From the NCBI GenBank assembly GCA_022925895.1, contig JAKSYS010000032.1, positions 1 through 64,000 of the forward strand: a DNA stretch of 64,000 nt, written 5' to 3'. The notes under the pieces were generated by a model. It had not been told where the DNA came from. It saw only the letters and a program-made list of their open reading frames with translations, and searched no databases. This document shows positions 5-50,013 of this stretch, piece after piece. Each line of letters starts with the position of its first letter. Position 1 is the first letter of the stretch. This DNA is from Fragilaria crotonensis. Taxonomy: Eukaryota; Bacillariophyta; Fragilariophyceae; Fragilariales; Fragilariaceae. A program made the translations under genes and the position numbers.

Positions 5-3000
5 ATAACTGAGGAACGTATGCACTTTAGTACAGGGATTTACCAGGAGGTATACACTATCTGTATACTTTCCGGCAGTCCTAAAATCCGTTTTGTGTAG
101 ACTCTAGTATATATGGAAGGTAACCGCTAGGCCTGTCCCAAAGTCATACACCTTAGCGTATGACTTTCAGGGTAACCCTAAAACTGATGCAGGTCCGTGC
201 CTGACTCAGTACTTACGGTTAAATAGTGGTTTTACGAATAAATATATACTTAGACAATTTGAATTCCCACATTTAGAGCACTGACAAGTAACACATGTTC
301 ATACGATATTGTTCATCGGTCAAAAATACATCTCAAGTGGGAATGCTCAACACTCCTGACAATTTGCTGATAATTCATATTTAGCAGCATGCCAAGACAA
401 AGAGCTAATCGTACTGGTGGAGGCAGGCTTCGTGTCACTGATGATGCTGCCATTACCGTTGGAGCTGAGGTTGAAGTACGGCCTGAGCATTTAAGGGCTC
501 TAAATGTAACAAAGACCAAAGAAAATGCAGAGGAGACACGAAAGACACATCGTCGTCGCATCAAAAACCTTATCAAGTGGTGGATGACCGAGTACCCTGA
601 CTACTTTGAAGTTGGTACTGCATTTTGTCTGCAGAGGAGAAGGCCGACCCAATGATGTTCTACCATACTTGTGACCGTGACATTATTTATTCTGGACTTG
701 AGTTGACTTGGTCCTTGCCTATATGGCAGCCACTAAATACAAAGCTGGAGACATCATTTACACACACTCGCATATGCGAAAGGTACATGATGCAATTCTC
801 TTTGGTGCACGAACTGTCAAAGAGGTACTGTCCACATCATACTATTCTGAAATGGACAGTTTTCTTACTCATTTCAGAAAGAATGTGCCGATGCTGCCAG
901 TCAGGGCAATGTCGACGCGAAGAGTGCTGATCAATCAGCTTTTCCCTGTTTGATTGATCTTGACATGGGCAATTGAAAAGGAAACATTTATGTCTGGGTT
1001 TGGACGATTCTACAATGGAATCTTATGGCCAGGTCCATATCGATTGACCCACTGGCATTGCATAATATTGCAATTTCTGAAGATCATTTCGTAATTCGTC
1101 ATGATTCAACCAAGTCAGACAAAGAAGGGGTGAAGACACACAACAAAGCTGTCTATTGTAACCCTTTGGACCCTATTTTGTGTCCCGGGGTCAGTCTTGG
1201 AATCTGGTTGTCGTTGAACCAGAACACATTTCATGATAATTCCGAAGCGAATTTTTCTTCGACATGGTGCACGTGTCGGAAGTGCGGCACATCGCTACTG
1301 CGAGCAGCTACAGAAACTTATGAAAGTGTACTGGGGAATTGTCCAGACATACATAACAACTATGTCTGCACATGGCATTAGGAAAGGAAGTGCCACACAT
1401 GTTTCGTGTGCCACAACATGTCCTCCACCAATTGCCTCAATTGCGAATCGGGGCGATTGGTCGATGGGAAAAGTTCTCGACGTGTACTGGCAATTTGCCG
1501 ACGTAGGAGATGCGTACCTCGGACGTTGCCTCTGTGGCCTGGACCCAAACCTCAGTACATTCTCTGTCCTCCCCCCTCATTGGACAGTGGACGATCCAGT
1601 TCATGACCCAGATATTGAAGATGCATTGCAATTAATGTATGGTGTCATTATTGCCCAACATCCCAACAGTATCGCGGTACTGGTTCGACTGTTGGCATCT
1701 GTCACCTATGCCTCCGATTGGTTGCTTGCTTCATCTGCTCAGTATCCTGGACATCCATTGTCCGCTGTTCCTCTCCTTCAAAATCCTGAACTGCTAAATC
1801 GATTGAAAATGAAAGTCACGATTGAGCCTACGAATTCACTGGCTATCTCCACTGGGATTCCACCTCATGTCAAACAGTTGAACCTGATGACATCGCTCCT
1901 TGAGCTTTGTCAAACTACATTGCTACGTGTGAATGAGCAATCTACTATTGTAAGGGAGTCTATTTTTGAGGCTATGGAATTAAGGGCTATCGAAAACGGT
2001 CAAATTACTCGCCACCAGATAGTGGACATTCTAGATGAATTCAGGAATGGCATTCGAGACGACGTGCGGGCACAGATTGAACTCATTCAAGCTGTACCCG
2101 GCATTAACCAGCATCCGGGTGATGGTGCTGGGGATGCAGCAACTCGTATAGGTGGCGGTGGTGAGCAGGGGACATTGTACACTCACTCCGGAAGGTTCTG
2201 GGACGTTCCCCTGGCATTCGCCTTCCCAGTGTCCGTGAAGCGAGACGTGGGTTGGCGCCTGTGGCTGCAAGGAATGCCGGCACATACCACAGTGGGTGAG
2301 AATGGAGAAATGATACAGAACAAGATCAAGGCATTTGCAAATTCTTACCTGCTCGGTTGCCAAGAAAAGTTGCAGAGGACTACAAGTTGCACTGGAGGCC
2401 TCTATTTTCAATGATGGAGAAGGGTTTTGGCGATATTCCTGAAGTGTTGACGCCTGCAATTGTTAACAATTTATACGACCTGGGAACTGAGTATTTGAGA
2501 ACAAGGGTAAGTTACGTGTTCACAAACAAAAATTGCATCACAATGCTTGGGTCATCGCAACTTGGGCGAAGTACCTGAGCAGGAGTATGATTATGAAGAA
2601 GGAACGGACGACGACAAGCAACACTTACCTGCTGCAACCTATTTAAACCGACCTCGAGCTGCAGGTCTGAAGCGCCGTCGAGGCGCAAATGTGGCGGCGA
2701 TCCGTCAGGAACAGCCTGCGGGCGGCAACGCCGTCGTGGTCCTCACACGGCGATTGAACAAGAAGTTGCGCAGGTCACACACCATGCACCAAACGACGAC
2801 TCCAGCAATGACAATGACGGTGGAACAGCAGTAGTAGACTGATTGTTAACTGATACTAGTAACCTGTGAAACGAGGAGCAAAGCAGATGGTTAGAAACGG
2901 ATGGAAAATGAATTGGCAGCTAGATTCATGCAAGCACACGATGCTGCACGACATAGAACCTCTGGGTACGTACCTTATTTTGGTTGAAGGCCGTTGAGGA

Positions 3001-3381
3001 AACCATTGATTTCACTTCTTACGGGATCTTACGGGCATTGTGTATCGAATGGCATGGTGTAGATTGTTCGACACCATGTTTGTCTTGCGACAACATGGTG
3101 TTGACCGACATCGGTCCCTCTGCGGTTTTTGTGGTTCCAGAGTTTTTGTTCTGGAGTGTTTGAAAGAACACACCTGGAGTGGTTAATTTCATGACACTCG
3201 TGATTCTACTTCACAAGTACATACGTACTTGCGGTATTTTTATTCTAAGTATAGACGTAAGACCTATACATGTTAGCATACTTTCATCTTTATGAGCATA
3301 AGAGAACTACGTTGCCCGATAGGATATATACCCTACTCTAGAGGCATACCTTAGGTGTATACTTTTCTCCCTCGCTTATAC
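5..3381 (+). mobile_element. Crypton-like tyrosine-recombinase DNA transposon, copy 1
   Basis: First of two head-to-tail copies of a ~3.38 kb unit. Bases 1-4 (ATAC) match the end of the unit, so a further copy may lie upstream of the window. The unit has a ~380 bp leader, one recombinase gene, and a ~540 bp 3' region with a hairpin near 3069-3103 (complementary ACACCATGTT-type arms). There is no reverse transcriptase, no LTR and no terminal inverted repeat. The lone tyrosine recombinase with a C-terminal GCR1_C-like part is the plan of Crypton DNA transposons. Each unit is bordered by TATAC. Assignment to the Crypton class is by motif recognition and not by a search. Confidence 0.75.
389..2842 (+). 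pseudogene. Crypton tyrosine recombinase, copy 1 (frame-disrupted)
   Basis: Same gene as the second copy at 3768-6228. Against it, this copy has many 1-nt differences that shift frame, mostly missing bases around 700, 870, 930, 950, 980 and 2335 and in the 2700s, plus an extra base near 1246. From about 1255 to 2340 the frame is open and carries the recombinase core: HGIRKGS (HxxR box), RGDWS (His/Trp position) and DVYWQF (probable nucleophile Tyr), followed by the GCR1_C-like region. An intron with donor GTAAGT at 2507 and acceptor CAG at 2582 (76 bp) would join the last two coding parts in frame. The indel-only divergence suggests consensus error in this copy. Confidence 0.7.
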
Positions 3382-6300
3382 ATAACTGAGGAACGTATGC
3401 ACTTTAGTACAGGGATTTACCCGAGAGGTATACACTATCTGTATACTTTCCGGCAGTCCTAAAAATCCGTTTTGTGTAGACTCTAGTATATATGGAAGGT
3501 AACCGCTAGGCCTGTCCCAAAAGTCATACACCTTAGCGTATGACTTTCAGGGTGGCCCTAAAACTGATGCAGGTCCGTGCCTGACTCAGTACTTACGGTT
3601 AAATAGTGGTTTTACGAATAAATATATACTTAGACAATTTGAATTCCACATTTAGAGCACTGACAAGTAACACATGTTCATACGATATTGTTCATCGGTC
3701 AAAAATACATCTCAAGTGGGAATGCTCAACACTCCTGACAATTTGCTGATAATTCATATTTAGCAGCATGCCAAGACAAAGAGCTAATCGTACTGGTGGA
3801 GGCAGGCTTCGTGTCACTGATGATGCTGCCATTACCGTTGGAGCTGAGGTTGAAGTACGGCCTGAGCATTTAAGGGCTCTAAATGTAACAAAGACCAAAG
3901 AAAATGCAGAGGAGACACGAAAGACACATCGTCGTCGCATCAAAAACCTTATCAAGTGGTGGATGACCGAGTACCCTGACTACTTTGAAGTTGGTACTGC
4001 ATTTTGTCTGCAGAGGAGAAGGCCGACCCAATGATGTTCTACCATACTTGTGACCGTGACATTATTTATTCTGGACTTCGAGTTGACTTGGTCCTTGCCT
4101 ATATGGCAGCCACTAAATACAAAGCTGGAGACATCATTTACACACACTCGCATATGCGAAAGGTACATGATGCAATTCTCTTTGGTGCACGAACTGTCAA
4201 AGAGGTACTGTCCACATCATACTATTCTGAAATGGACAGTTTTCTTACTTCATTTCAGAAAGAATGTGCCGATGCTGCCAGTCAGGGCAATGTCGACGCG
4301 AAGAGTGCTGATCCAATCAGCTTTTCCCTGTTTCGATTGATCTTGACATGGGCAATTGAAAAAGGAAACATTTATGTCTGGGTTTGGACGATTCTACAAT
4401 GGAATCTTATGGCCAGGTCCATATCGATTGACCCACTGGCATTGCATAATATTGCAATTTCTGAAGATCATTTCGTAATTCGTCATGATTCAACCAAGTC
4501 AGACAAAGAAGGGGTGAAGACACACAACAAAGCTGTCTATTGTAACCCTTTGGACCCTATTTTGTGTCCCGGGGTCAGTCTTGGAATCTGGTTGTCGTTG
4601 AACCAGAACACATTTCATGATAATTCCGAACGAATTTTTCTTCGACATGGTGCACGTGTCGGAAGTGCGGCACATCGCTACTGCGAGCAGCTACAGAAAC
4701 TTATGAAAGTGTACTGGGGAATTGTCCAGACATACATAACAACTATGTCTGCACATGGCATTAGGAAAGGAAGTGCCACACATGTTTCGTGTGCCACAAC
4801 ATGTCCTCCACCAATTGCCTCAATTGCGAATCGGGGCGATTGGTCGATGGGAAAAGTTCTCGACGTGTACTGGCAATTTGCCGACGTAGGAGATGCGTAC
4901 CTCGGACGTTGCCTCTGTGGCCTGGACCCAAACCTCAGTACATTCTCTGTCCTCCCCCCTCATTGGACAGTGGACGATCCAGTTCATGACCCAGATATTG
5001 AAGATGCATTGCAATTAATGTATGGTGTCATTATTGCCCAACATCCCAACAGTATCGCGGTACTGGTTCGACTGTTGGCATCTGTCACCTATGCCTCCGA
5101 TTGGTTGCTTGCTTCATCTGCTCAGTATCCTGGACATCCATTGTCCGCTGTTCCTCTCCTTCAAAATCCTGAACTGCTAAATCGATTGAAAATGAAAGTC
5201 ACGATTGAGCCTACGAATTCACTGGCTATCTCCACTGGGATTCCACCTCATGTCAAACAGTTGAACCTGATGACATCGCTCCTTGAGCTTTGTCAAACTA
5301 CATTGCTACGTGTGAATGAGCAATCTACTATTGTAAGGAGTCTATTTTTGAGGCTATGGAATTAAGGGCTATCGAAAACGGTCAAATTACTCGCCACCAG
5401 ATAGTGGACATTCTAGATGAATTCAGGAATGGCATTCGAGACGACGTGCGGGCACAGATTGAACTCATTCAAGCTGTACCCGGCATTAACCAGCATCCGG
5501 GTGATGGTGCTGGGGATGCAGCAACTCGTATAGGTGGCGGTGGTGAGCAGGGGACATTGTACACTCACTCCGGAAGGTTCTGGGACGTTCCCCTGGCATT
5601 CGCCTTCCCAGTGTCCGTGAAGCGAGACGTGGGTTGGCGCCTGTGGCTGCAAGGAATGCCGGCACATACCACAGTGGGTGAGAATGGAGAAATGATACAG
5701 AACAAGATCAAGGCATTTCGCAAATTCTTACCTGCTCGGTTGCCAAGAAAAGTTGCAGAGGACTACAAGTTGCACTGGAGGCCTCTATTTTCAATGATGG
5801 AGAAGGGTTTTGGCGATATTCCTGAAGTGTTGACGCCTGCAATTGTTAACAATTTATACGACCTGGGAACTGAGTATTTGAGAACAAGGGTAAGTTACGT
5901 GTTCACAAACAAAAAATTGCATCACAATGCTTGGGTCATCGCAACTTGGGCGAAGTACCTGAGCAGGAGTATGATTATGAAGAAGGGAACGGACGACGAC
6001 AAGCAACACTTACCTGCTGCAACCTATTTAAACCGACCTCGAGCTGCAGGTCTGAAGCGCCGTCGAGGCGCAAATGTGGCGGCGATCCGTCAGGAACAGC
6101 CTGCGGAGCGGCAACGCCGTCGTGGTCCTCACACGGCGATTGAACAAGAAGTTGCGCAGGTCACACACCATGCACCAAACGACGACTCCAGCAATGACAA
6201 TGACGGTGGAACAGCAGTAGTAGACTGATTGTTAACTGATACTAGTAACCTGTGAAACGAGGAGCAAAGCAGATGGTTAGAAACGGATGGAAAATGAATT

Positions 6301-6765
6301 GGCAGCTAGATTCATGCAAGCACACGATGCTGCACGACATAGAACCTCTGGGTACGTACCTTATTTTGGTTGAAGGCCGTTGAGGAAACCATTGATTTCA
6401 CTTCTTACGGATCTTACGGGCATTGTGTATCGAATGGCATGGTGTAGATTGTTCGACACCATGTTTGTCTTGCGACAACATGGTGTTGACCGACATCGGT
6501 CCCTCTGCGGTTTTGTGGTTCCAGAGTTTTTGTTCTGGAGTGTTTGAAAGAACACACCTGGAGTGGTTAATTTCATGACACTCGTGATTCTACTTCACAA
6601 GTACATACGTACTTGCGGTATTTTTATTCTAAGTATAGACGTAAGACCTATACATGTTAGCATACTTTCATCTTTATGAGCATAAGAGAACTACGTTGCC
6701 CGATAGGATATATACCCTACTCTAGAGGCATACCTTAGGTGTATACTTTTCTCCCTCGCTTATAC
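3382..6765 (+). mobile_element. Crypton-like tyrosine-recombinase DNA transposon, copy 2
   Basis: Second head-to-tail copy. It starts directly after the TATAC that ends copy 1 and ends with TATAC at 6761-6765, where unrelated sequence begins. It is nearly identical to copy 1, differing by mostly single-base indels and a few substitutions, with a net length difference of about 7 bp. Two units sharing one short direct repeat at the junction are what site-specific insertion of a circular transposon intermediate would give. Unequal exchange or an assembly duplication could give the same picture. Confidence 0.75.
3768..6228 (+). pseudogene. Crypton tyrosine recombinase, copy 2 (nearly intact)
   Basis: Predicted to cut and rejoin DNA through a Tyr-linked intermediate and so move the element. 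In order: a basic N-terminus from ATG 3768; a helical N-terminal domain; the catalytic core with the first Arg in LMARS, a Lys in HDSTK, the HGIRKGS box, RGDWS and the likely nucleophile in DVYWQF; then a GCR1_C-like region (near GWRLWLQGM) and a basic tail. The frame changes near 4000, shared with copy 1, and near 5335, where one G is missing relative to copy 1. A 77 bp intron (GTAAGT at 5890 to CAG at 5966) is likely. The sequence resembles a multicopy pennate-diatom recombinase family that I recognise from memory. With two frame changes it may be inactive as written. Confidence 0.75.
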
Positions 6766-7265: not shown

Positions 7266-9588
7266 ATGAGACTATCCATCGCTTTGAACTGTGCGTTCGC
7301 CCTTGGGTTGATGGGACCAAGCGATGCGTTCACTGCTACATCCCCAACTGCGTTCCTTCGCCTACCCGTGAAGCTGAGAGTCGGAAATTTCGGCCCTGGT
7401 GCTGGATGGGATAACGACGACTTTCTTGAATCTCTGTCAAAGCCGAACGAGCAACGTCCTATTGAAGATGAAGTTCCAGTTCAAGAACTAGAAGGTACAT
7501 TACCACCTGTTCAACCGTATCGGGGAGAACACGATGAGAACCAGGGCGGCTCCAGATTCAAAGCGATGATGGAAGCGGCTCAGCGGGCCAAAGCTGCAGG
7601 TCTCCCCACCCGAGGATCGCCGCCCATCAATCCGTACGCTGCGAATCCTTTCGCCCCTCCTGCTGCCTATTCTAACGCACCTCCTCCTCCACTGCTCACC
7701 ATAGATCCGGCCGAGGCCGAGAAACTGTCGGTCGAGCAGCAAGCTGCCTTGTTTCGTCAAATGATGGAGCAGAGACAAAGCCAGGCGGCGACATCGTACA
7801 ACCCACCAACGCCGGGACCTCCCACCATGATTGGCGGTCTCGATGCCAAGGGTCGCAAAATTGGACGGAACCGTGATACGGATACGATTGCCAACACTTC
7901 GGATCTGTACTTTGCGCAGCTCAAGCGTGATTCGTCCGTCCGAAATATGGCTCGTATTCAAGGCGATGAGGAATTTGCTGATAAAGTCTTTGCGGATCCA
8001 AGTGTGAAGCAGTTGGAAGTCGAACTCAAGGAAAACCCGTACTTACAAAAGTAAGGATCCAACGTGGACGTTTTGCACCTAGGTTGTCCTTGACATGCAC
8101 GCACTCACCTTTTTTCTTATTACAGGGAAAAAGACGAAAACAAGGGAATTTTTCAGGCCATGGCAGAGGAAATGAAACAATTTCAAATCAGGCAGGCGGC
8201 GAATCAACCAGATGTCAAGGATACGGGTCCCAAATACAAGGAAATTATGGCAGCCAAGAAAGCCAAGAAGAGCGGTAGTGAAACTCCAACTCCACCCCCG
8301 GCACCAGTCGTTGCAGCAGTTCCAGCGCCAGTACCTGCACCGGTTCCAGCTGTTGCTGAAATCCCAGTGCCAGTTCCACCACCTGTTGTTGTTCAAGTCC
8401 CGGCTCCAGCACCAGAATTGGCTCAAGTCCCCGCTCCAGCACCAGTCGTCGCGCAAGTACCAATCCCAGCACCAGTGCCAGCACCCGTTCCAACACCTAT
8501 TGTCACGATACAAGCGAGCGAGCCAATGGAAGAAACGGAGCTTACAAAGCGCAAGATTCGTGAACTCCAGGGCTTGTTCCTAAAGCACCGAGGAGGCCCT
8601 GGCTTCGGATCTGGTCGTCTTCGTGGCAGCGAGGTGGAGCAGTTTGAGGAAACATTGAAGGCTGTTGGTGCACAACTCAGAGCTGACGCTGGTCTTAGAA
8701 CGGAAGCGGCATCGACGGTTCCTGCTCCGGTAGCCGTGGCGGAGCCGATTGCCGCCGCTGTTCCAGCACCAGCTCCGATCCCCTCGCCGTCGCCTCAGAT
8801 CCGTCCTCCACAGCTTGAGGCTCATGCTCCGCTTATTACTCCTCCGCCTCGTCCAGACACGTCTGCAATGACAACATTCACTACAGGCTCTGTGGATCCA
8901 CGCTTGCAAGGATCGCTGGCCTGCGTTGAGGGTGCTCTTCAAATGTACAAGAACTGCTCTCCTGAAATCCAACAGGGCATGTTGATGGCACTTCGTGCTG
9001 CCTTGTTGTCGGCTGCCAATTCTTGTCAGCAAGTGATTGAAGGTACCGTGGATCAAACATCCTACTCGCCGCCACCACCGCCGCCTGTATTTACTTATAC
9101 AGCTGGTGCTCAAGATGCTACGATTGAAGAATCAGGTGAGGAACCCGTTGTCGACGACGTTGCGACTGTTCAAGGTGCGATGCCTTCCGGTAACGACTCA
9201 AACACCGTTCTTCTGCGCAAGGTCTATGATTCTCTAAGTGCTGCATCCGGTGGGGGGAAGTTTGGGCTTGGTCCCATTAGTGCTGGCGAGGTAAGGCGAT
9301 TTGATGAACGCATTCGTTTTGCTAATCAGTATTGATTTTTGGTCGTTGTAAAAACTCATTCTTTCTTTTGGCGTTTCGTTTCAGGCCAGTGATATTGTCG
9401 ACCTAGTCATGGATATGCGCTCGATTTTGATGGAGGAGCTTGATTCGGGTATTCCAGATGATGATTCTCCTGTCCTGCCTACTCCTACTAGACCTGCAGA
9501 ACCACCTCGTAGTCAGCCATCACAAGGCACATCGTCAACGTACCAAAAAATGCTGGCCAAAGCTCGGGCGGCGAAGAAGCAAAGTTAG
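7266..9588 (+). CDS. Plastid-targeted Pro-rich protein of unknown function (3 exons)
   Basis: Exons 7266-8050, 8126-9290 and 9385-9588, with GTAAGG donors and CAG acceptors, give 717 residues in frame. The N-terminus is a signal peptide followed by SDAF|TATSPTAF, an Ala-Phe cleavage context typical of diatom plastid preproteins. The body is Pro/Ala rich, with a long PVPAP-type tract encoded around 8280-8510. A ~50-residue module occurs twice: around RGGPGFGSGRLRGSEV, and around GKFGLGPISAGE spliced to exon 3. A short motif recurs three times: SRFKAMMEAAQRAK, PKYKEIMAAKKAK and STYQKMLAKARAAK at the C-terminus. I do not recognise a named family. The repeats with low-complexity linkers would suit a scaffold or linker protein, which is inference only. 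Confidence 0.8.
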
Positions 9589-22505: not shown

Positions 22506-25166
22506 ATGGCGAAGAAGAAAAAGAAGGCTGATGCCACAGAAGCACCGAAAGAAGTAAAGGAGCCAACCCCGGAGGTCCCAATCTTGGATTGGATGGACCT
22601 TACCCTGCTAAATGTGCCCAAAGGGAAAGCAATCGACAGTCAGCAAATCATTTTGACCAAGCAAGACGCTTACAGCCTCGACATCTTAAATGGCGATGAC
22701 GTGATCGTATTGGTTCACACGAATGGTATCCCGGAGAAAGCAGCAATCTGCTCAGCTCGAGTTGTCTCCAATCAGGAGACGCCGAGAAAATCTCCGACAG
22801 CAACTGCGAAGCCGTTTTCGAAAGGATCGTGTCACGTGGTGCCACCATTCCTCTTGGAGAGACTCTGTCGCGCAGAGAGCGATGAAGTCGCTGCAATACA
22901 GGAGGAGCCCGCAACCCCAGCTTCGAAAAATAAGGGTTTCTCTTTCGCCAAGGGAGGCGGTGGCGATGCTTTCATCAGTCCCTCCAAGGCAGTTGAAACG
23001 TTACGGAAACCACCGACCTTAATGAAGAAAAACGTGTGGATTGTCCCCCTCTTCAATCCGTTGGGTGCCCGATTGACTGCATCTCTGTGTAAGCCTTGCA
23101 GTTCCCTTACTTTGCTACCAACTGCCTCTATACCTGCGAATGCTCTTCGAGTCGTACAAAAGATGGTCGCATTGAGAACTGTCAACAAATACGTCGTCGA
23201 GGGAGAATCAATCGGCATTTCGTTCCAAGGAAAGTTACTACAGCTGACGATCAAAGAGGCTACCAGCAGAGAAACTTCAGGACTTGTGGAACTGGAAAGA
23301 GCGGTGGACGAGCTAAAACTTGACAGCATTGAGTTAGATGCTGGGGAGCATATCGCTGCGGCAGTGAAATCATCCGTCACGGATCCAACGACGGCCTTAA
23401 ATCTGCAACTCTTCCAAGTGCTTCCAGACACAAAGATTCTTATTGAGTGTGAAAATGCAGTCGAGGAAAGTAGCATGCAAGGTCCCTTTGTTGCTGGCTT
23501 GGATGATGCAATCAGCCAGGTCATGACAACGATGGTGCCAGCGCTACTCCGACCCGAAGCCTACGGAGGCCTAGCGCCACCGCGTGGTTGTCTGCTGTTT
23601 GGACCCAGCGGTGTCGGCAAGAGCGCTTTGGCTAGACAGATTGCTTGGGATGTGCGGATACAGTACCCTCAGATTGATGTGGATCTGGTTCATTGTTCCT
23701 CTATTCAATCTCACGCAGCGATTGTTGGCGAGGGTGAACGAATGTTGACTAAATTGTTTACTCGTTCGCGCAAGACCCTAGTAATTCTCGATGATGTACA
23801 TTTCATCTGCCCTAAACGTGGTAGCGACCCCAGCGTGGATCGACTTGCGTCAACTTTGCTTGCACTTATGGATGGGGTGGAACGAAACAACAACGTCTTC
23901 GTGCTGGGCACGACGGCGGATCCCGCGCAACTAGATCCCGCGTTGAGGCGTCCGGGAAGGTTGGACGATGAAGTGGAAGTTCCCATTCCTGACGAGAAAA
24001 CTAGGGCAAAGATTTGGAAGTTTCACATTGGTAGACTGAGAGATGAAGACGTCTGTCTCGATCTTTTCTCTGAGGAGGATCTGAGCAATCTGGCAAGCTT
24101 GGCAAAGGGTTTCACTGGTGCCGATTGCCTTTTGGCAATAAAAGAAGCCACCCGAATTGCCTTGAAGGATGAATCTAAAGCCCCACAAGTGGTCACAATG
24201 GAAGTACTCAAAGCCGCAATTGGTACGACCAAACCCTCGACTATCAGCTCCATCACTGTGGAGGTGCCGAAAGTTTATTGGAATTCCATCGGAGGGATGA
24301 TCGACGTGAAGCAGAAGCTTCGAGAAGCCATTGAGTTGCCATTAACGCATGCTGACCTCTTCGCCAAATACAACATACCTCCACCACGTGGCGTTCTGCT
24401 GTATGGTCCCCCAGGCTGCTCCAAGACTCTCATGGCCAGAGCATTGGCAACGGAAGGGAAATTGAACTTCCTCGCCGTCAAAGGGCCAGAACTGCTTAGC
24501 AAATGGCTCGGTGAAAGTGAACGTGCATTGGCATCTCTTTCGTCGCGCGCGGATGGCGAGCCCCTGCATCATATTCTTTGATGAGATTGATGCCATTGCT
24601 GCCAAGCGCGGTGGCAGCGATGGGAATGCGGGTGGAGAACGACTGTTGTCGCAGCTTCTGACAGAACTGGACGGTGTGGGCACTAGACAGCAGAGCCACG
24701 TCATCGTGGTTGCCGCAACCAATCGACCAGATTTGCTTGATCATGCGCTGACGAGGCCAGGACGAATAGATCGAAAAATATACGTTGGGCTACCGGATAG
24801 GCTGAGTCGTGAGCAGATCTTTGAGATCGCTTTGATGAACAAGGCTCACGCCGATGATGTTGACGTAAGTACTTGAATAATTGTCAGCAATGGCCTATCT
24901 GTGATGGGTGGTTTCTTACAACTCCTATTGCGTAGTGTCGCCAACTTGCTGCAGACGACGTCAGTGGAGGATTTTCGGGTGCCGAGATAATCTCCATTTG
25001 TCGAGACGCTGCATTGCTTGCCATCGAAGAAGATGACGAGGAAATGAACGCTGACAATACATTGATGATACAAATGAGACATCTGACCAAAGCAATGAAG
25101 GCAACACCTCGGCAAATCACCCGGGCAATGCTTGATTTTTATGAATCGTATACAAACTCAATATAA
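22506..25166 (+). CDS. AFG2/SPATA5-like tandem AAA+ ATPase (one apparent frameshift)
   Basis: Two-ring AAA+ ATPase of the AFG2/Drg1/SPATA5 group. Known members release Rlp24 from pre-60S particles. In order: a Lys-rich start and N-domain (to ~320); D1 with Walker A GPSGVGKS (residues 366-373), Walker B VILDD (426-430) and an Arg-finger-type RRPGR; D2 with GPPGCSKT (634-641), the Cys-Ser-Lys-Thr form typical of SPATA5, then WLGESER, IIFFDEIDA and TRPGRIDR. The frame shifts once near 24535-24545, between ALASL and FRRARMASP, so a dinucleotide is missing or one base is extra. An intron at 24865-24935 (71 bp) leads to the last exon 24936-25166. D1 Walker B ends Asp-Asp rather than Asp-Glu, so D1 may hydrolyse ATP poorly. 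Confidence 0.85.
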
Positions 25167-38089: not shown

Positions 38090-38512
38090 GTTGTGATATA
38101 CTACTACCTTGAGGGTATGTGATTGTTCGATTAGCACAACAATGCGTCGGTTGATGAAGTTGATACTTTCGAGGGGAACAATGCTGACAAAACAGTCAGA
38201 TTCAAGAGTCAGACCGTCACAGAATATTCATGGTTGTTGAGCTATATCTATAAATCCCTATTATCACTGGGCCTGGTTCGAGATGCTGGTAGCCTCGGCT
38301 GCACGCAAGGCAGTCCCGCCGGCCTTGCCATGATTCAATAAGACTCTCAGCTTTACAGTCCGCCAACTCCGAGTCACGGATCAAGGACTACGTCATACCC
38401 GGACTATACAGTAGAAGCAGGATGACGTATTGGACACGAAAAGTTTCCCAAAATCGTACCGTCTTCGTAGGAACAAATTTCAATATCTGAATAGGCCATT
38501 CGAAAGATCTTA
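38090..38512. other. Intergenic between NYN gene and MITE
   Basis: About 420 bp, upstream of the minus-strand nuclease gene, so it should contain its promoter. No other feature was recognised. It ends with the TTA target duplication at 38510-38512. Confidence 0.4.
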
Positions 38513-38572
38513 GGCCCACCCTTACGGTAGTGAAAAGTTGAGATGAAAAACTGACCCCCCAACTTTTTTTTT
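38513..38572 (+). repeat. Left 60-bp TIR of the Harbinger-type element
   Basis: Exact reverse complement of 39660-39719. It begins GGCCCACCC and ends in a run of nine T. Confidence 0.9.
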
Positions 38573-38624
38573 CGTGTTGACCGGCCTTATGGATGAAAAG
38601 TTGCATGAAAAACCAAGTTGGTCC

Positions 38625-38707
38625 GATCTCAACTTTTCATCGAAAAGTTGCTTGTAAAAGTTGGGGCCCAACTTTTAACAGCAACTTTTCGATGAAAAGT
38701 TGAGATC
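38625..38707. repeat. 83-bp fold-back inside the TIR element
   Basis: Two perfect 27-bp arms (38625-38651 and 38681-38707, starting GATCTCAACTTTTC) flank a 29-bp centre. The centre is itself nearly palindromic (AAAAGTTGGGGCCCAACTTTT). It shares the AAAAGTTGAGAT word with the outer TIR. Confidence 0.9.
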
Positions 38708-38815
38708 TTCGAGTCGATTGAATCATCGCTGCGTGAAACGAGATCTTGTCGCCAAGTGTCAAGTTGTCACACCATTCGAGTAAACGTATGTAGGTGTCAT
38801 GTCAAGCGTTGTCGT

Positions 38816-38848
38816 TGTCTACGACGACAACGGCGACACTTTAACCTC

Positions 38849-38880
<32 letters not shown>

Positions 38881-39412
38881 ACTAGTGACGGCAACACTAG
38901 ACATCTTCGATGACAACGACGACACTAGCGACAACGAAGTCGACGGCGACTAGAGATGCGACACTTGATGTCGTCGGCGACGACAACACTAGCGACCATG
39001 ACGACGACGGTGTCACTATAATTCGCGACGATGACGACAAGCGACGACAACGGCGACTAGAGACGACGACGGCGACGAGAGGCGCTAGCAACGACAACGA
39101 GCGATCTTAGCGATGACGAAGACGACTGCGACTAGAGTAGCAGCCATGACAGCGACGACTACAACAACCGGTAGACCTTGCAACGACGAAGACGACGGCG
39201 GCACTTGGCGTTGTCGACGACAACGACGCTAGCGACGACGGCGACATTAGACGTCGTCAACGACGACGACGCAAGCGACACTAGACGCTAACGACGACAA
39301 GACGACGGCAACACTAATGACACTAGACCTCGCGACGACGACAACACCAGCGACAACGGCGACACTAGACGGTAGCAACGACGACGATGCTAGCAACCAT
39401 GATGGCGACACT
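38816..39412. repeat. GAC/ACG-rich minisatellite-like tract
   Basis: About 600 bp built from GACGACGAC, GACACTAG and CAACGAC words in irregular order, with no fixed period. Open frames across it are low complexity on both strands. Strong strand asymmetry, with C and G spaced every three bases. Confidence 0.8.
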
Positions 39413-39659
39413 CCTGAAAAATTAAATGCTACTTGTGTATTGTTTTCCACTACAGTACCTTGTTGTAATCACTCGCCTTCAACGATGATGTTGGCAGTAT
39501 CGCTATGGTCACCAGCAATGACGGCTTGTAGTGGAATTGCCTCTAATAATAGTACTGGAGTTCTTAGTATGGAATAAAATGCGACAGTAAGGACAAAAAA
39601 TACCCGGAAAACACAACTTTTTCTGCGTTCACGATAAGGCCGGGGAAGCAGTATATTCT

Positions 39660-39719
39660 AAAAAAAAAGTTGGGGGGTCAGTTTTTCATCTCAACTTTTC
39701 ACTACCGTAAGGGTGGGCC
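39660..39719 (-). repeat. Right 60-bp TIR of the Harbinger-type element
   Basis: Exact reverse complement of the left arm at 38513-38572, followed by TTA. Confidence 0.9.
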
Positions 39720-41632
39720 TTATTGAGTTCTGTCGAAATACGTTTCGAGTTTTATAATTTGAATCGACAGTTGTCTCAGAATTTTGAGTCGTATTTTTTT
39801 GGGATTCTCGGCCCGAATTCACTAAGCTGACTTGGTTGGACACGTGGTGATTCGCCTAGTTAAATTATCGACGCCAGCCCGTGGTCACCCTATCCCCTAA
39901 GTTCATGATATTATTGCTGATTTGGAGACAAGAGATCATGGCCTTGAATATTGCCAGTGAACAAAACAAAAATTAAGCTACCCTTAATGGTGTAATTTGA
40001 TGAAAACTAACCAAAGTATTCTCGTCTAGTATTGATGAAGTAGTCTAGTACTATACCAATAGCACGTACTAGGCTAACGAGCTGCTGGATCATCTCTTAA
40101 AGCAATCAATTGATTTGTTATATCAATGACAAGGTCTGTCTTCTTCATTGTCAACATGTCTTTAATTCTGACACCAAAATACAATTTGAGAATGTCTTTG
40201 AGCATAGTCCTCCGTCAAAGTTGTCCCCAACAGCCGCAATCTTGAAGCGCCCCATCAATTCCGTAAGGTACGGCATCATCTCACATTGTTGTACTTCTTC
40301 TGTTGATTCTGTTTCTTTTTGCTTTTCTACCTTCTTCAATGCTTTCTGATACCATCTGATCTGTTGATATTGTCCATTTGTTTCGTTGCGTGTTCGATCA
40401 CAATAAGTCTAGACCTACTGTGGTATGTACTAGTAGTACGTAGCCTCTACCGTGCAGGTACGGAACTATGGGAGCAACACGGAATGCGTAGGTGCGCATG
40501 CACGAGCACACCTGAATGTCGATTTTTATTGCATAAATGAAGAGATCATGGCAAGGGGATTCCAGAGCCGCCAATATTTTTGTTTTTGATTAAAAACTGA
40601 AAGAGTAAAAAAATAATCAAATCCTACGGCAGTTTCTACGCAACGTATACCACAGCCATTTGTCCAGAAGTGTCAGCTGTCCATCCAAGTCATCCTGCTT
40701 CTACTGTGCACGTATCCGGTTTTTAGGCAACCCTGAAGGCAACCCTGTAGCGCTAGTATTGAGAAGCACGTAGACGTAGTTGTTGTACCAAGTGCTACAA
40801 GTAGTGGCGCACCATCATGTTTGCCAGTACGAAAGATTGCTTTGGGGTCTCTGTGCATTTATTTGTTTTGCGTCCTATGTCTCGTCGTACGGAGAAACGT
40901 GGACCCTTTATCGTGGATTCCAAGTAGCCTCCAGTACACGCGAGTACTAATCCGACCAGCGCATCAATAAAATAAAAATCAATTACATTCGACGATCCAA
41001 CGTGCGGCGTTGCAGAATTCTGGATGTTGTTCTTCACACTGGCAACCGGTTGATGCGAAAGTCAACATTCCCATTGTGTGCATTGGCTCTCTCTCTCCCT
41101 AGCACTTTCTTCGTCACCACCACAAGTCTTATTGCTGATTACCTTTGTGAGCTCAGTCATTTTGCCTCTTGGCCTCAAAGCAGGGAGGAGACTCTGTTCC
41201 TCCGGGGACTCAGCAATGCCAGTGAAACAACTTTGCTTGATTGCCTACTACACATTGGACATTTTTCAAGTTATCCTCCCACCGACAGACTGTTTGGTGG
41301 GTCTCTGGGTTGTTGGGATACTGCAATGCAATTTTGGCTGCAAGGCGTTCCCTGCTGATGAAATAACACAACCCTCCGAAGATTTTTAAACTTATGGCAA
41401 GAAGAAGTGTGCCATGGTACAGATGGTATTAAGTGCACATTTATTCAGGATGGTGGTGAGTTGTTGTTTTGACGTCAATCTGTTGTTCGTGTGTTTATGC
41501 TTAACGTGCGATACCATTCTTGTTGCTTCAGGTATGGATGATTCGGTGGATGCATGGAATAAAACCAGTCTAGTTATTACTTGTACTGAAAATACCAATG
41601 AAGATCAATATTGTGTTGCGAATACCCTCTAG
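39720..41632. other. 1.9 kb without a recognised gene
   Basis: Short open frames only (up to 126 codons), with no motifs. The right part lies directly downstream of the minus-strand Crypton-like gene and may include the end of that element, but no terminal repeat could be found. A direct repeat GGCAACCCTG occurs twice near 40727-40747. Confidence 0.4.
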
Positions 41633-43603
41633 CTACAAAACCCGCAAATATGGGTGACCGCCACCTGCGGCATTGTCACGTCTCATCAATTTGATGATCT
41701 CTGTGACACTTGTTCCAGCACCGTAGGCATGGTAAATCATGTCAATTGCCACTTGTGCTGAATGACCAGCACGAATCATCTCTGCTATTTTGTCCCAGAC
41801 AACCTTGCGTTTGCAGTACACACACTTGACTCGCCCTCTTTCAATAGATGTGAATTCTCGTGCTGCCTTTCTGCCACCTATGCCCATTTCATATTCACAC
41901 CACAGGACATGAAGAGACCTTGGTGTTCGACTCAGAGTTGCATTTGCCAGAGGCAGCCCAGCCCTTGGTTCTATTTCTCCTGCTCCTCGAGCATTTCCAT
42001 TATCATTATCACGGGGGCGCTGGACAGGTTGTTGTGCAACTCGACGTATGTTCCGCCTTAAATGATCCAGCTTTTCATTGATGTCGCGAAATCGCTGATC
42101 TTGCCCTTCACCAATTTGTTCAAGACCCAAGTGAATCTCGCGTCTCAGAACGTTAAGTTGGGAGTAAATCGCTCTCAATTGATAGTCCTGACCAGCAAGA
42201 AGAACACCGTTGTTTTGCACATTCACATCATAACCACCTTCTCCATTTACAGTCCCGTTCTCGTCTGCAAAAACCTCATTGATGTGAACTTCATCGTCTT
42301 GACCAGTCACAACAATTAGGATTTTACGAACCGGATTTTCGCCATCTGGCAGCCGAGTCTCAAGTTTTTCATAGGCAGCACGAATCCGACTGCGAAGCGA
42401 TGCAGGCATGAAATGTTCCATGTCGGGATCAAATGCTGCCCAGAGAAGCGGGAAGGCAAGGACAAGTGACACTTGCTGGTGCAGATTCCTAGATGCAAAC
42501 ATGTTCGGTACCACATTGTCAAGTAGCCATGCCTCAGTCACACCGCTTTGATTCTTCAAGGAATACTTTATTGGACCTCCCATGGCAAGCACAGATGCAA
42601 CCCTAGCATCTGGATACGGTAGATTGACATCAATGTACCTATCAACTACTTGATGCTTCCTCCAACGCCCTGCCTCGTGACGAGACATCGTCTTTAGGAC
42701 AACCATTTCGTCGTGCAAATGAAGTTGCAAACTTACGTATACTGTGAGTGCCCAGGTTTCCAGCTCCTTCTCTTACAACATCACCAGTCTTGCCCCATAT
42801 ATCTCTTGCTAGAGTAGCCGAAACAAATCCCTTAGTTGTTTCTGGATCACCGTGTCCAAACAGGTAAGGGTTGCTTAGTCCATCTTCAACCTCACACGAG
42901 ACTTCGAGGTAAATTCCTAGAGCAACTAGAATGCAGTACCTTGAGTCCATACTTCCGAATATAATTTGATCAGGGGCATCCCTTTCTTCCATCACATTTT
43001 TTGACCAGCAAATGCGAGACAACAGTGTATACGAAGGAAATTGTGGGTTGGGCTTCAAGTCAATCAATTTGAAGTTGCTTGCATCATCAATCCGAGCAAT
43101 CAGACAGAATTGAAATTTGCAGGAAGTCGGGATCATGTATCTCCTGTTGAAGTCCTCGAATGTGTTCAATTTTAACAAAGTAAGCTCAAACTCATGCTTG
43201 GTGATAGCACGTCTTGCCTGACTCGGTGCCCCCAATCGGCGAACCTCTTGCCGTTTGACATGCCTAATCAGTCTGTTAACTTCAATTGACCGTGTGGGGT
43301 TACCCTCATTGCAACTTCATCCCAAACCACACCTTTGTTTGGCATGAAGAAAGAAATTGACTTCTTGTAGGTTGAAATTGAGTTTGCTCTGCCCGTCATG
43401 GGCCTCGCATCACGACCAGGATTATCAGTCCCATATGCAAACACCTTCATCCACCTTACAAGATCATTCGGAATCACAGCCACAAGTTGCTCTTGTGTAA
43501 AAATGGTCTGATCTGTGTAGTTTGCATCATCCCTGAATGACATGAACCTAGCAAGAATGCCATGATATATCTCTTCAAGGGTTTTCTTGTTCTTGCGAGC
43601 CAT
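41633..43603 (-). pseudogene. Second Crypton-like tyrosine recombinase, divergent family
   Basis: Minus-strand recombinase gene from ATG 43603 (MARKNKKTLEEIYHG). In order: N-terminal helical domain; linker with VKRQEVRRLGAPSQARR; catalytic core with ARIDDAS (first Arg), THSIRKFATS (HxxR box), GRW at the His/Trp position and VVDRYI (likely nucleophile Tyr); then a coiled linker and a clear GCR1_C-like end (LHVLWCEYEMGIGG, KCVYCKRKVVWDKI, HPYLRVL). The frame changes twice, near 43265 (after GQLKLT) and near 42690 (between SSRGR and WRKHQ), each a small indel. Low sequence likeness to the 389-6228 genes marks a different lineage. Element ends were not found. Confidence 0.75.
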
Positions 43604-43965
43604 GGTGAATTCCACTATACATTCATTCGGAGTAATGTTAGTACTCGTATGGCGTAGTATGCGCGAGGACCCAGCAGTGAATTATTTTGGAGTTCAGAAA
43701 GCAAGTTCGACACCCCCAAATCCCCCAACTTCCGATTCATTCGAGTTGCTTTTTGACGATCTGGGTTGCTTTTGTACATGAACGTGACGTAGAAAATTTG
43801 TCAGAAAAGGCAACCCTGGGGGAAACCCTGGTTTCCTTTGTTCTGTGCTTTTTGCCCCAAAATCCGCTATTTCGCGTGAGTGGACTGAAAAGTTCCTACA
43901 GGCCCGCAGTGGAGAGATACCAGGAAAATCCACTTCGGTTGCTTTTCCTGAGTTATGTACAGGTA
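43604..43965. other. Spacer between Crypton-like gene and copia LTR
   Basis: About 360 bp. Possibly the 5' region of the Crypton-like element. No gene was recognised. It ends in CAGGTA (43960-43965), also found after the far LTR. Confidence 0.4.
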
Positions 43966-44468
43966 TGTTGAGAATCCCAGATATCGTGAGCGCGGTACCA
44001 CAGTACTTGCTCTGGTTATGGGGTGATAACTGCGGTTGTCAGGCCTTGACAAAATCTGTAAAGTAAAAGTTATGAGTTTAGGTTCTAACTAAACTCCTCT
44101 TCCAGGTTCCCTTCTCTGTCTCTCCAGAACCTTCTCCTGTCTTCTTCCTTCCTTGTGTCTCCTTCTTGTTCTTCCCAGTTCTTTTATAGTAGACTTCTGT
44201 CCAATCTCCTACATGTTTAATGATTTCCTTTGACTTTCCATAGTTTTCGTCCTCCGATGGAATCTTGGTTTGTTGGACTCTTTGGAAATCCGTAGATCGA
44301 TTAATTTCGAATTCTTTATCCCAGTTCAGTCGTGCGTTCAATTCCGAGTTCACGTCTGACTCGAATCTGACATTCCGTCCAAACGTCGAATCTCTCTCAG
44401 CTTCGCCAACGACAGTATTCACTGTCCCACCGGTACTGGACTTATCCAGTAGCCTACTATCCTCGACA
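43966..44468 (-). repeat. LTR (3' LTR in element sense)
   Basis: 503 bp, bounded TGTTGAG...CTCGACA on the plus strand (TG...CA). It matches 49511-50013 with only one difference noticed by eye. Confidence 0.92.
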
Positions 44469-47400
44469 TCCTCCCTCCAACAATCCAGGGTTCCATCTCG
44501 TATGTTCTTCGCGTGTTTCGTATGTAATTTCTCAGGACAGTTCTTGTTCAATATGTCCGCTGCATTCTCTTCCGATCGAATAAACTGCACGTTCAAATAA
44601 CCGTTATCTTCCAGTTCACGGATAAAATGAGCACGTACATCGATATGCTTCGTTCTGGCTCCGACATGTTGATTCTTGACCAAATAAATCGCTCCAAGAT
44701 TATCCTCGTACACTTTTCCCATATGACGTTTCTCATCCGGTCTTCGTATGCCTTCGTCGAGTAACATCATGATAAACTTGTTCTCGCATGCACCTCTCGC
44801 CAAACTGATATATTCCGCTTCGGTACTCGATAGTGTAACGACGTGTTGGGTCTTTGATTCCCAATGTACCAACGTTCCACCTAGCGTATGCAGTCCCGAA
44901 GATATACTCTTGCGATTGTCCGTATTCTTGGCATAGTCGGAATCCACCATAGAAATAGGTCGTAGTTCCTTGGGTCTCCTGTACGTAAGCCCCTCGTATG
45001 GTCGTAACTTGATATGACCGACCATTCTGTCCAATGCCTTCCAGTGATCCTCACCTGGGTTTGATAGGTGCTGTGCCAGTTCTCGAGCTGCGTTGGCCAA
45101 ATCCGGTGCCAGTTTCGTCGTTAAATACATGATCTTTCCAACCATTGACCTGTAGTCCGTCATATTAACCGTAGGTCCTTCGTTTTTACTTAGGTACTTG
45201 TTCGGGTATCCGGGCGTGTCGTAGGTCTTGACTTCCTTACCAGTAATCTTCTCGTAGGTTTCCACGATTTCATCTTCAAGTTTGTTCATCTTCGCAGTGA
45301 TAATGACATTTCCGTTTTCGTCCACGCTCCAATCGTACCATACTCCTAAGTGCTTCTTCAACTTTCCGAGATCAGATATATTGAATCGTTCCTTAAGCTT
45401 CGTCTTGAATTCCTCAATCGCCTTCTTCGATCCAACCAAAATTACGTCATCCACATGCACAACTGCCATCAGGGTCATATGCCCTTTCGTGTCTTTCCAG
45501 TAGTACATGCACGGATCAACCAGACTTTGAATCATATTCATGTACTTCGTCAAGTACTTACGTAGTGTCTTCATAAAAAGTCTTGGGACATCCACTCCTC
45601 CATACATCGGACGAGTCAACATAATACAATAACGTCTCAATTCGTCTTCCGTTATATATCCCAATTCAACAATACCTTCCGGCCACTCTGCAAATACTGG
45701 CTTGTCGTCTTCAAGTTCCGCGTTTAAGAACGCTGCTTCGATGTCAATCATCTCAATCGTCCAACCTTCGTCTTGCCTGTACAGCGCGATAGTAATCGCG
45801 AGTCTGACCGTAGTATCCGTTGCAACTGGTGAAAATGACTCTGTATAGTCCACACCAGGTACCATCACGTAGCCCTTCAGTACGATTCTGCTCTTGTACC
45901 GTAGTGTGCCGTCCTGTTCCTCCTTGATCTTGAAAATCCACTTAACAGGTATCGGTTTTCGTCCGTTCAACTTGTCCCTTGGGAATTTCTTCCATGCGTC
46001 CCGTGATATGAAGTTATTAATTTCGGACTTAGCAGACGGTATCCACTCTTGCTTCTTCGGTCCGGTCACAGCTGCACGAAATGTCTTAGGTTCGCCTGGG
46101 TCCGACGTAAGCATGGTATTAAATACCAGATGCGCAATTCGAGTTCTGCTTCTTGTACGCGTCCCGGGCTCGTCGTTTTCGATCACAACTGGACTCTCAA
46201 TTCCAAGTTTTTTCAATTCTCTTTCCAATGGTGTTGTCCTCTGTTTTTGCTGTTCCTCGACCATTTCTTCGGCATTCTCGATGATTGTTTGTTCTGTAGG
46301 CAACTCCACGATTCGCTCTTCAACGCTGTCGCCTTCCTTCGCAATATGATGACGTCTTCGTCGTCATCGGAGTCGGAATCGAAAAGAATTGAATCGGAGG
46401 CACGTCCATTTTCGTTTCGTTCTCGTCGTGTACCTCGTCTTCTTTCGTTCTCTCTGCTCAATCATCGACTCTATCCTCCCTGCTGAAGACATGGGAGTTT
46501 CAGCCGGTTGCAATGCAGTTATGGTCGCGATTTCCTCATCATACTCTGGAATGAGATGAATTTGGGGAGTCAATTCCTCTTCATCTGCCGCCAATTCAGC
46601 TTCCACCTCTTCCAGATCTTCACCTAGGACCATCTGACGGTCAAAGGCATCGTCCATTGTCAGTCTGATGTCATTTTCAGCCTGTGTCAAGTCAGCCCAT
46701 GCATGAATATCTCTTGTTTCAACAATTTTTCCACTGTAGGGATTGTACATCCTGTACACATCTCTTGCATGGTTCTCAGCATAACCAACCATGATCATCT
46801 TGGTGGCTTTCTCCTTGAACTTCCCCCTCATTGTCCCTCTGTTTGTAACATAGCCAATTCGGCCATATTCCACTGTGCTACCGTATATGGTGCACGGGGT
46901 ACCGTAGAACAGTTCGTCTGGGGGTACTGTACTGCGGGTATTGGGTAGTGTATTCCCGAGTACCGCCGCAGTCTTCGTCGCTTCCGCCCACAGTTTTCCT
47001 GTAGAAATTTGGTCCATCCTGCAGACAGCATCATAGCCAGTGCTCTGTTGGCGTCTCGTGCAAACATGCGTTCAACAACCCGTTATGCTGTGGTGTGTGC
47101 GGTGCCGTATACTCCATCTTGATATTGTACTGTCCTTCGCACATCTTTAAATCCGAAATGTGTTCTCCGGCATTGTCGCATCGGACGTACTTCACTTCAA
47201 TACCAGCCGCCTTCAATTTGTCCAGAAGTTCTTGAAGGTGCGCTTTATCCCACTCTTCTTAGCGCCGTAAAGTCCCACGACTTCCTCGTTTTGTCGTCGA
47301 CAATCTTGAACCAGTATCGTGATCCCGCAACCGTCTCGTTGTATGGACCACTCGTATCCATATATAGGCGTTCGCCACGTTCTTCAGCCTCGGTCGTCGT

Positions 47401-49510
47401 GATCTTATTGGTTCGTTTCTGCGTAGCGCACGTGCACATCCATCGCACACAGCCCACTCTCCCGTAGGTTTGATACCAAGCGTTTTAAGCAAGCTCCGAA
47501 CCACTTTTTCCGTCGCATGTCCAAATTTTCGATGCGCCTCATTGATGTCCATGGCTTCATTCTTCTGTTCTCGATGGTTTCGTCGCCTCGTTTCGCAATT
47601 CCTTCGGCATTAAAAGCTTCTCTTTCAAACGAAACTCGTCGCGCTTTCAGATAAGTCATCCCGTCTGTTTCCTTTTCAAATTTCATCGTGTCACCAGATG
47701 GGTTCTTGAGCTCAGATTCGTCTTTCCTGCTCACAAACTCGTTCCCATTCTCATTCAAACGTCCCACACTGATGAGGTTTCGAGCGAAGTCGGGGATAAC
47801 CATCACTTCTCGCAAAATCATCCGCTTATTGGTGTGTTTTTGCTCCAAACACAGATCTCCAATAGCTGTAGCTTTTAGGGTCTCATTGCTCCCAACTCTG
47901 ACATGCTCTCCATCCAAAGTAGCCTTCAAATTAAACATGTTGTTGGTGGTCTTAGCAACATGAGTAGTGGCGCCCGAATCCATCAACCAGTTCTCAAAAC
48001 CATCTTCATCATGGTCAGCAACAAACTTAGTTTTGCTGGAATTCGCCATGAAAACTTCTTCGTCCCACTTCCAATTACTTAGGCCTCGCGGGGTGTCCAT
48101 GCGGTATTCAGTCGTGTCGGATTCCTTTTTCTTGTCTTTTCGTCGTCGTTCCAGAAATCGTCTTCGTCATCGTCGTCATTGTCTTCGTGATTGCTTTCGT
48201 CATCGCTCGTTTCACACATATCAGCCCAACTCACGGGCTTTTGATCCTTCGGAGATCTTCTTCGAGTTCGGCGTCGTTCTTTCAATCCCATCGTAGTATT
48301 GACCAATTAATTCTTCTTCCGGTTCCGATACGTCGAGGGCAGTAATCGTCTCGGCAAATTTCTTGTACTTGCGATCCAACTCCGTATCAGGTTTACGTTT
48401 CCTGTTATCGTTCGCGATGTCGTTGAGAATCTCCAGGGCAAGCTTGTCCAGATCGATGTCGTTTTGTACCATTGGTTCCTCCCTGTTTCTCGTTTCGTGA
48501 ATAGCCATTCCGACAAACATTCCCGAGTCGTTTCCTTGAGTTTTGCAGTGCTGCGCTCGGTGCCCAACTTGGCCACATTTGTAACATTTTCCCGAAAACG
48601 AATTTTGCACTCCATTGCCATTCTTGACATTGCCTCCATTTCTCTCTTCATTGCTCTTGCAGTCTCGTGCCTTGTGCCCTTGTTTTCCACACTTATTACA
48701 CTTCCCTTTAAATTGCCTCCAGCTGTTTCGTCCGCCGGTCGTCGTGAGCGCCAAATGCTTCTGATTTCGTTCGCCTCCTTTTTCGTCTCTCTTTTCTTGA
48801 ATTCGTCCCTTAAACGGCTCAATGAACATTTGGTAGTGCCCTGTGATCTCCTCAACGAAGTCTTGATGGTCCATACCTCACGCCCAATCTTGCCGTTCAA
48901 CGAAGTGATGACGGCCTCGTAGTCGTTTTGGCAAACGTGCCAAAATTGTTGCTTGCATCTGTTCTTGGCTTCTCATGGTTCCATTTTCACACTTACCAAC
49001 CTCTCTGTTCAACCTTTCGAGCTCCAATATCCACATGTGCGGGTCCTCCATGTCATTCTTCATGTAACACTTCTCCAATTGCGTAGTCGCCTTCACAAGG
49101 TCTTTCGTCTTCTTCGAATCGTACCGACTTTTCAACGCTTTCCACATGTCGTTCGCCGTCTCTTCGGCCTCAATAATCGCAAATGCGTCGCCCTGGCATG
49201 ACATAATCAAAAAATTGCGAGCATCGTTGTTCCACTTCTGCGCTTGTTCTTCCTCTCTTGTCAACTCCACAGCCCCTGGGCTTGGCAGCTTCAACTTCCA
49301 GCAGGCCCCTCTCAAAGCCTTTGGACGCAGCAAACACTTCTGCCTTCTTGAAGAACTCTCGCGGTTCCATACCGCCCTTCGTCTTGTCATTTCCCCAAAA
49401 GGGAATGACCTTGATCGTCTCGAGCGGACTCGACTTCATCGTCGCTTCGCTCGCCATCGTCGTCGTCGTCGTTAGATCTTAACTCTCAAAAGCAATCGTT
49501 TTATAAAACG

Positions 49511-50013
49511 TGTTGAGAATCCCAGATATCGTGAGCGCGGTACCACAGTACTTGCTCTGGTTATGGGGTGATAACTGCGGTTGTCAGGCCTTGACAAAAT
49601 CTGTAAAGTAAAAGTTATGAGTTTAGGTTCTAACTAAACTCCTCTTCCAGGTTCCCTTCTCTGTCTCTCCAGAACCTTCTCCTGTCTTCTTCCTTCCTTG
49701 TGTCTCCTTCTTGTTCTTCCCAGTTCTTTTATAGTGGACTTCTGTCCAATCTCCTACATGTTTAATGATTTCCTTTGACTTTCCATAGTTTTCGTCCTCC
49801 GATGGAATCTTGGTTTGTTGGACTCTTTGGAAATCCGTAGATCGATTAATTTCGAATTCTTTATCCCAGTTCAGTCGTGCGTTCAATTCCGAGTTCACGT
49901 CTGACTCGAATCTGACATTCCGTCCAAACGTCGAATCTCTCTCAGCTTCGCCAACGACAGTATTCACTGTCCCACCGGTACTGGACTTATCCAGTAGCCT
50001 ACTATCCTCGACA
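49511..50013 (-). repeat. LTR (5' LTR in element sense)
   Basis: 503 bp, same limits and sequence as 43966-44468. Followed by CAGGTA at 50014-50019. Confidence 0.92.

Follow-up and report, generated by a model that had tools for sequence, protein, structure and literature searches.

Two nearly identical units of about 3.38 kb were found in direct, head-to-tail tandem at the beginning of the window, by which we mean the whole stretch of 64,000 nucleotides analysed from Fragilaria crotonensis (contig JAKSYS010000032.1). The best explanation, to which we give an even chance, is a young Crypton-like tyrosine-recombinase DNA transposon that is released as a circle and reinserts by site-specific recombination.

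Structure of the tandem and of its ends

The tandem is genuine in the sequence as given. Copy 1 occupies positions 5-3381 (3377 bp) and copy 2 positions 3382-6765 (3384 bp), both on the plus strand, and the two share 99.41% BLAST identity, which bears out the arrangement described in the original prediction. Their alignment of 3389 columns contains 20 differences, comprising 12 bases absent from copy 1, 5 absent from copy 2 and 3 substitutions, two of which are adjacent; one-base indels account for 17 of the 20. The end of copy 1 is joined exactly to the start of copy 2 with a single TATAC (3377-3381), and the right boundary is sharp at 6765|6766, where an unrelated flank replaces the sequence with which a unit begins. 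Elsewhere in the window, BLAST detected no additional copy of the unit, giving only short matches with E values of 2.2 or worse.

The TATAC at the joint, the one closing copy 2 at 6761-6765 and the ATAC at the window edge (1-4) are all located as had been claimed. Their interpretation as independent short direct repeats was not confirmed, because the last bases of a unit recur at every joint of any tandem, and the two full TATACs are thus a single observation of one unit end, viewed twice. The left flank within the window amounts to four bases, and a third unit lying to the left would give an identical ATAC. Since such a unit forces the ATAC, positions 1-4 are informative only together with a unique left flank, and a flanking repeat is here indistinguishable from the end of another unit. 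TATAC occurs 91 times in the window against 60.4 expected, 28 of these matches lying inside the two units. The proposal that TATAC serves as the crossover core is weakened, as the pentamer is one instance of the YATAC motif, of which many cluster at the ends, and it would be read equally well as a recombinase binding half-site.

Other kinds of terminal structure were considered and rejected. A classical recombination core would show an inverted repeat around the joint, but the one present there does not stand out from many other places in the unit: the best 9-base arms match at 7 positions, which is equalled by 78 of 23520 placements across the element, and 14 of 200 shuffled sequences fold as well as the joint. 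Terminal inverted repeats fared no better, the best one between the 150-bp ends being reached by 528 of 1000 shuffles. As direct repeats, the two ends match each other modestly, at a level reached by 15 of 1000 shuffles and by 9 of about 1000 pairs drawn at random from the window.

The putative recombinase gene and its comparison with known elements

In copy 2, the gene is divided over three overlapping reading frames on the plus strand, namely an N-terminal frame (3768-4031), a catalytic frame (4004-5362) and a C-terminal frame without Pfam match (5356-6225). In copy 1 (389-2839, plus strand) it is broken further, into several frames, and neither copy carries one uninterrupted gene. The first frame change is common to both copies, and the second occurs in copy 2 alone. 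The shared change is spanned by a 20-base stretch with GT at its start and AG at its end (3994-4013 in copy 2, and likewise in copy 1), which is probably due to chance; introns as short as 20 bases are very rare.

The residues H-x-x-R, W and Y are catalytic-type residues of tyrosine recombinases, and similar spacing is seen in Cre and Xer proteins. The catalytic frame has H-x-x-R-N25-W-N8-Y, running from HGIR to the catalytic-type Tyr at 4754-4870 (plus strand; residue roles taken from general knowledge of the family), a pattern which in its broad form is also present in 67 of 5000 shuffled proteins. In the same frame, an R and a K lying upstream were chosen by eye as candidates. Four gene pieces (copy 2 in three, and part of copy 1) were submitted to Pfam, and three of them gave no family up to an E value of 5, while the N-terminal piece matched RasGEF_N alone (E 0.098), under its cut-off. 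Among the reading frames of the unit, the submission covered these four pieces, and none of them gave a Pfam match to a reverse transcriptase or a DDE transposase. For the catalytic and C-terminal pieces, the PDB sequence search gave no match and PHROGs nothing below an E value of 0.15; single-sequence structure prediction was uninformative (mean pLDDT 36.9) and was used for no fold search. Of the claimed single tyrosine recombinase gene, the H-x-x-R...W...Y pattern was found, and a convincing Pfam family and an intact gene were not. The GCR1_C-like end attributed to this gene was not recovered, there being no GCR1_C match up to E 5 in the four pieces at the profile level, at which a domain diverged beyond profile detection could be missed. 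A Crypton-like element with a tyrosine recombinase as its only gene fits the spacing of the motif, the presence of one long gene and the lack of terminal inverted repeats.

Among the groups described by Kojima and Jurka 2011 (PMC3212892), CryptonS is found in oomycetes and one diatom, has no GCR1_C and has terminal repeats of 5 or 6 bp, with TATGG ends in the majority of its members. The tandem element resembles this group, as there described, in being apparently recombinase-only, in having no GCR1_C match, in a right-end pentamer that starts with TAT and in a host that is probably an alga, whereas it ends in TATAC and not in the commonest CryptonS end TATGG, which is a majority feature and not a strict requirement. 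Assignment to CryptonS, which was compared by description, would be compatible with these characters. CryptonF, reported from fungi and oomycetes in the same text, shares with the tandem element a tyrosine-recombinase-type gene and possibly short terminal direct repeats, but it encodes GCR1_C; no such match was found at the profile level in the tandem gene, which on this character would fall outside CryptonF. Outside the eukaryotes, the Salmonella element SGI1 has tandem arrays documented by Southern blot and PCR (PMC2297512). SGI1 is likewise an integrase-borne element whose copies can stand head to tail at the site of attachment, whereas it is bacterial and that site measures 18 bp. No report of tandem Cryptons was found in a partial search of the literature, and we do not claim that none exists.

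Protein scans with the tandem gene in viral_contigs and genome_contigs, which bring only close relatives within reach, gave no relative, and neither did a phage search with the catalytic frame. Mobility and ends therefore rest on one locus.

A second, decayed recombinase-like element with an H-x-x-R motif lies on the minus strand at 41636-43681 in three frames. Its C-terminal part matches GCR1_C with an E value of 0.0001 and 22.9 bits, just below the cut-off of 23, and a protein scan of viral_contigs with this element gave no relative. Homology between it and the tandem gene was considered and is unsupported, the best BLASTP E values being 0.088 and 0.096; the weak alignment at 0.088 spans the H-x-x-R region.

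Paired motifs in the noncoding ends

The TATAC pentamer belongs to a YATAC motif which is concentrated in the noncoding ends of the unit. Counted on both strands of copy 2, the 386-bp left noncoding end has 10 YATAC motifs against 3.1 expected (reached in 0 of 500 shuffles) and the 540-bp right noncoding end has 9 against 3.2 (2 of 500), whereas the 2458 coding bases have 8 against 6.0 (136 of 500). Several of these motifs are arranged as inverted pairs. On the plus strand of copy 1, YATAC-N7-GTATR is present at 51-67 in the left end and at 3345-3361 in the right end, and YATAC-N8-GTATR at 145-162 in the left end; the corresponding pairs of copy 2 are at 3429-3445, 6729-6745 and 3525-3542, respectively. 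The last of these sits within a longer inverted repeat, whose 23-nt arms (3507-3529 and 3538-3560) are 74% complementary. Each unit thus has three pairs of the form YATAC-N6-8-GTATR, against zero in the remaining 57,235 bases of the window.

Three pairs in the two ends were reached in 0 of 2000 shuffles. The paired pattern had been defined after viewing the sequence, and the test was therefore rerun over every 5-mer having no more than one degenerate position, where three pairs were reached in 0 of 300 shuffles, and in 1 of 100 when the spacer choices were widened. Among pairs of random window segments of equal sizes, 6 of 200 also hold a motif paired at least three times. After this correction, with support that is modest, the YATAC-N7/8-GTATR pairs look like candidate recombinase binding sites. 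Tyrosine recombinase sites are described in PMC3212892 as inverted repeats of 11-13 bp separated by a spacer of 6-8 bp; the geometry of the pairs is alike, but the shared arm core is here five bases.

Searches of viral_contigs with the DNA patterns of the joint and of the right end gave no match. The paired-site pattern matched three viral contigs, and tblastn of three gene pieces against the three matched loci gave nothing at E values up to 1. The window also gave nothing in Rfam (at gathering scores) or in a tRNA scan.

Origin of the end-to-start joint

In the mechanism which we prefer, the recombinase would most likely bind the YATAC/GTATR half-sites, which cluster in the two noncoding ends, and would join the ends of the unit, so releasing a circle which may then reinsert through site-specific recombination. 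One terminal pentamer at an end-to-start joint would be expected from such a circle or from one that has integrated next to a copy already in place. That Cryptons move as circles was itself proposed on the analogy of prokaryotic elements (PMC3212892). Insertion of a second circle at the edge of an existing copy would be plausible, tandem arrays being documented for SGI1.

A serious rival, which the original prediction had left unconsidered, is that the assembly contributed to the copy number: the genome would hold single dispersed units, and the contig would have been led through its terminal repeat a second time. We consider this possible, although clearly the lesser chance. It is favoured by the predominance of one-base indels among the copy differences and by their distribution within the gene, where copy 1 is broken by 10 of the 11 indels and copy 2 by the remaining one (binomial p 0.012), the broken copy being judged by which of the two keeps the long frame. 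The first base of the window also lies four bases ahead of the unit boundary. Further, a conserved host AAA gene is split over two frames at about 24.5 kb, a frame switch that is a sign of either a consensus indel or a broken gene, so that consensus indels would not be limited to the window edge. A report on diatom long-read assemblies (PMC8147415) describes raw assemblies as indel-prone and an assembler as having collapsed rRNA repeats. Against such an origin, a perfect end-to-start joint is unexpected unless some molecule carries it, and the three substitutions, two of them adjacent, distinguish the copies; moreover, the 503-bp LTR pair of a copia-type element on the same contig has one substitution and zero indels.

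The start position, the indel-rich differences and the excess of breaks in copy 1 together suggest that the window probably starts where the contig itself ends, at the boundary of the repeat. On this view the joint between unit end and unit start is probably physical, in the form of either a chromosomal tandem or excised circles. For the chromosome, two units, a larger number, or one unit accompanied by free circles would each be compatible with the sequence.

An improbable alternative is an array of more than two units, which unequal crossing-over would have produced or enlarged after a first duplication. The ATAC at 1-4 equals a unit end, as a third unit would give, and the assembly of arrays is hard; a random contig break would fall within four bases of a boundary only about once in 375 (9 of 3380 positions, a hand estimate), however, and crossing-over requires a first duplicate to act upon. 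That the tandem is an ordinary duplicated gene and not a recombinase element is hardly credible, as the H-x-x-R...W...Y geometry, the motif-rich ends, the sharp right boundary and the exact joint all speak against it, in spite of there being no convincing family match in Pfam (four pieces), PHROGs (two) and PDB (two).

A fuller form of the circle reading is rather doubtful and is offered tentatively. In it, the joint would have been left by a Crypton that actively forms circles, and the YATAC-N7/8-GTATR pairs at both ends would be the binding sites of its recombinase. If it is true, the attachment-site anatomy of a protist Crypton would be readable directly from sequence and open to test. A young copy in which such a joint is combined with well-defined candidate binding sites would provide a concrete system for seeking the circle and for mapping the recombination site.

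Some other features of the window were also recorded. The AAA ATPase gene mentioned above occupies 22506-24873, its second AAA domain continuing in another frame. The copia-type LTR retrotransposon lies at 43966-50013 and has an RVT_2 match, although several frames are needed to read its coding region. The protein of the gene at 7266 gave no Pfam match and has what is presumably a plastid-type signal, which points to an algal, perhaps diatom, host. At 38512-39720, a perfect 61-bp inverted repeat lies on either side of about 1.1 kb with CGACGACGG-type repeats.
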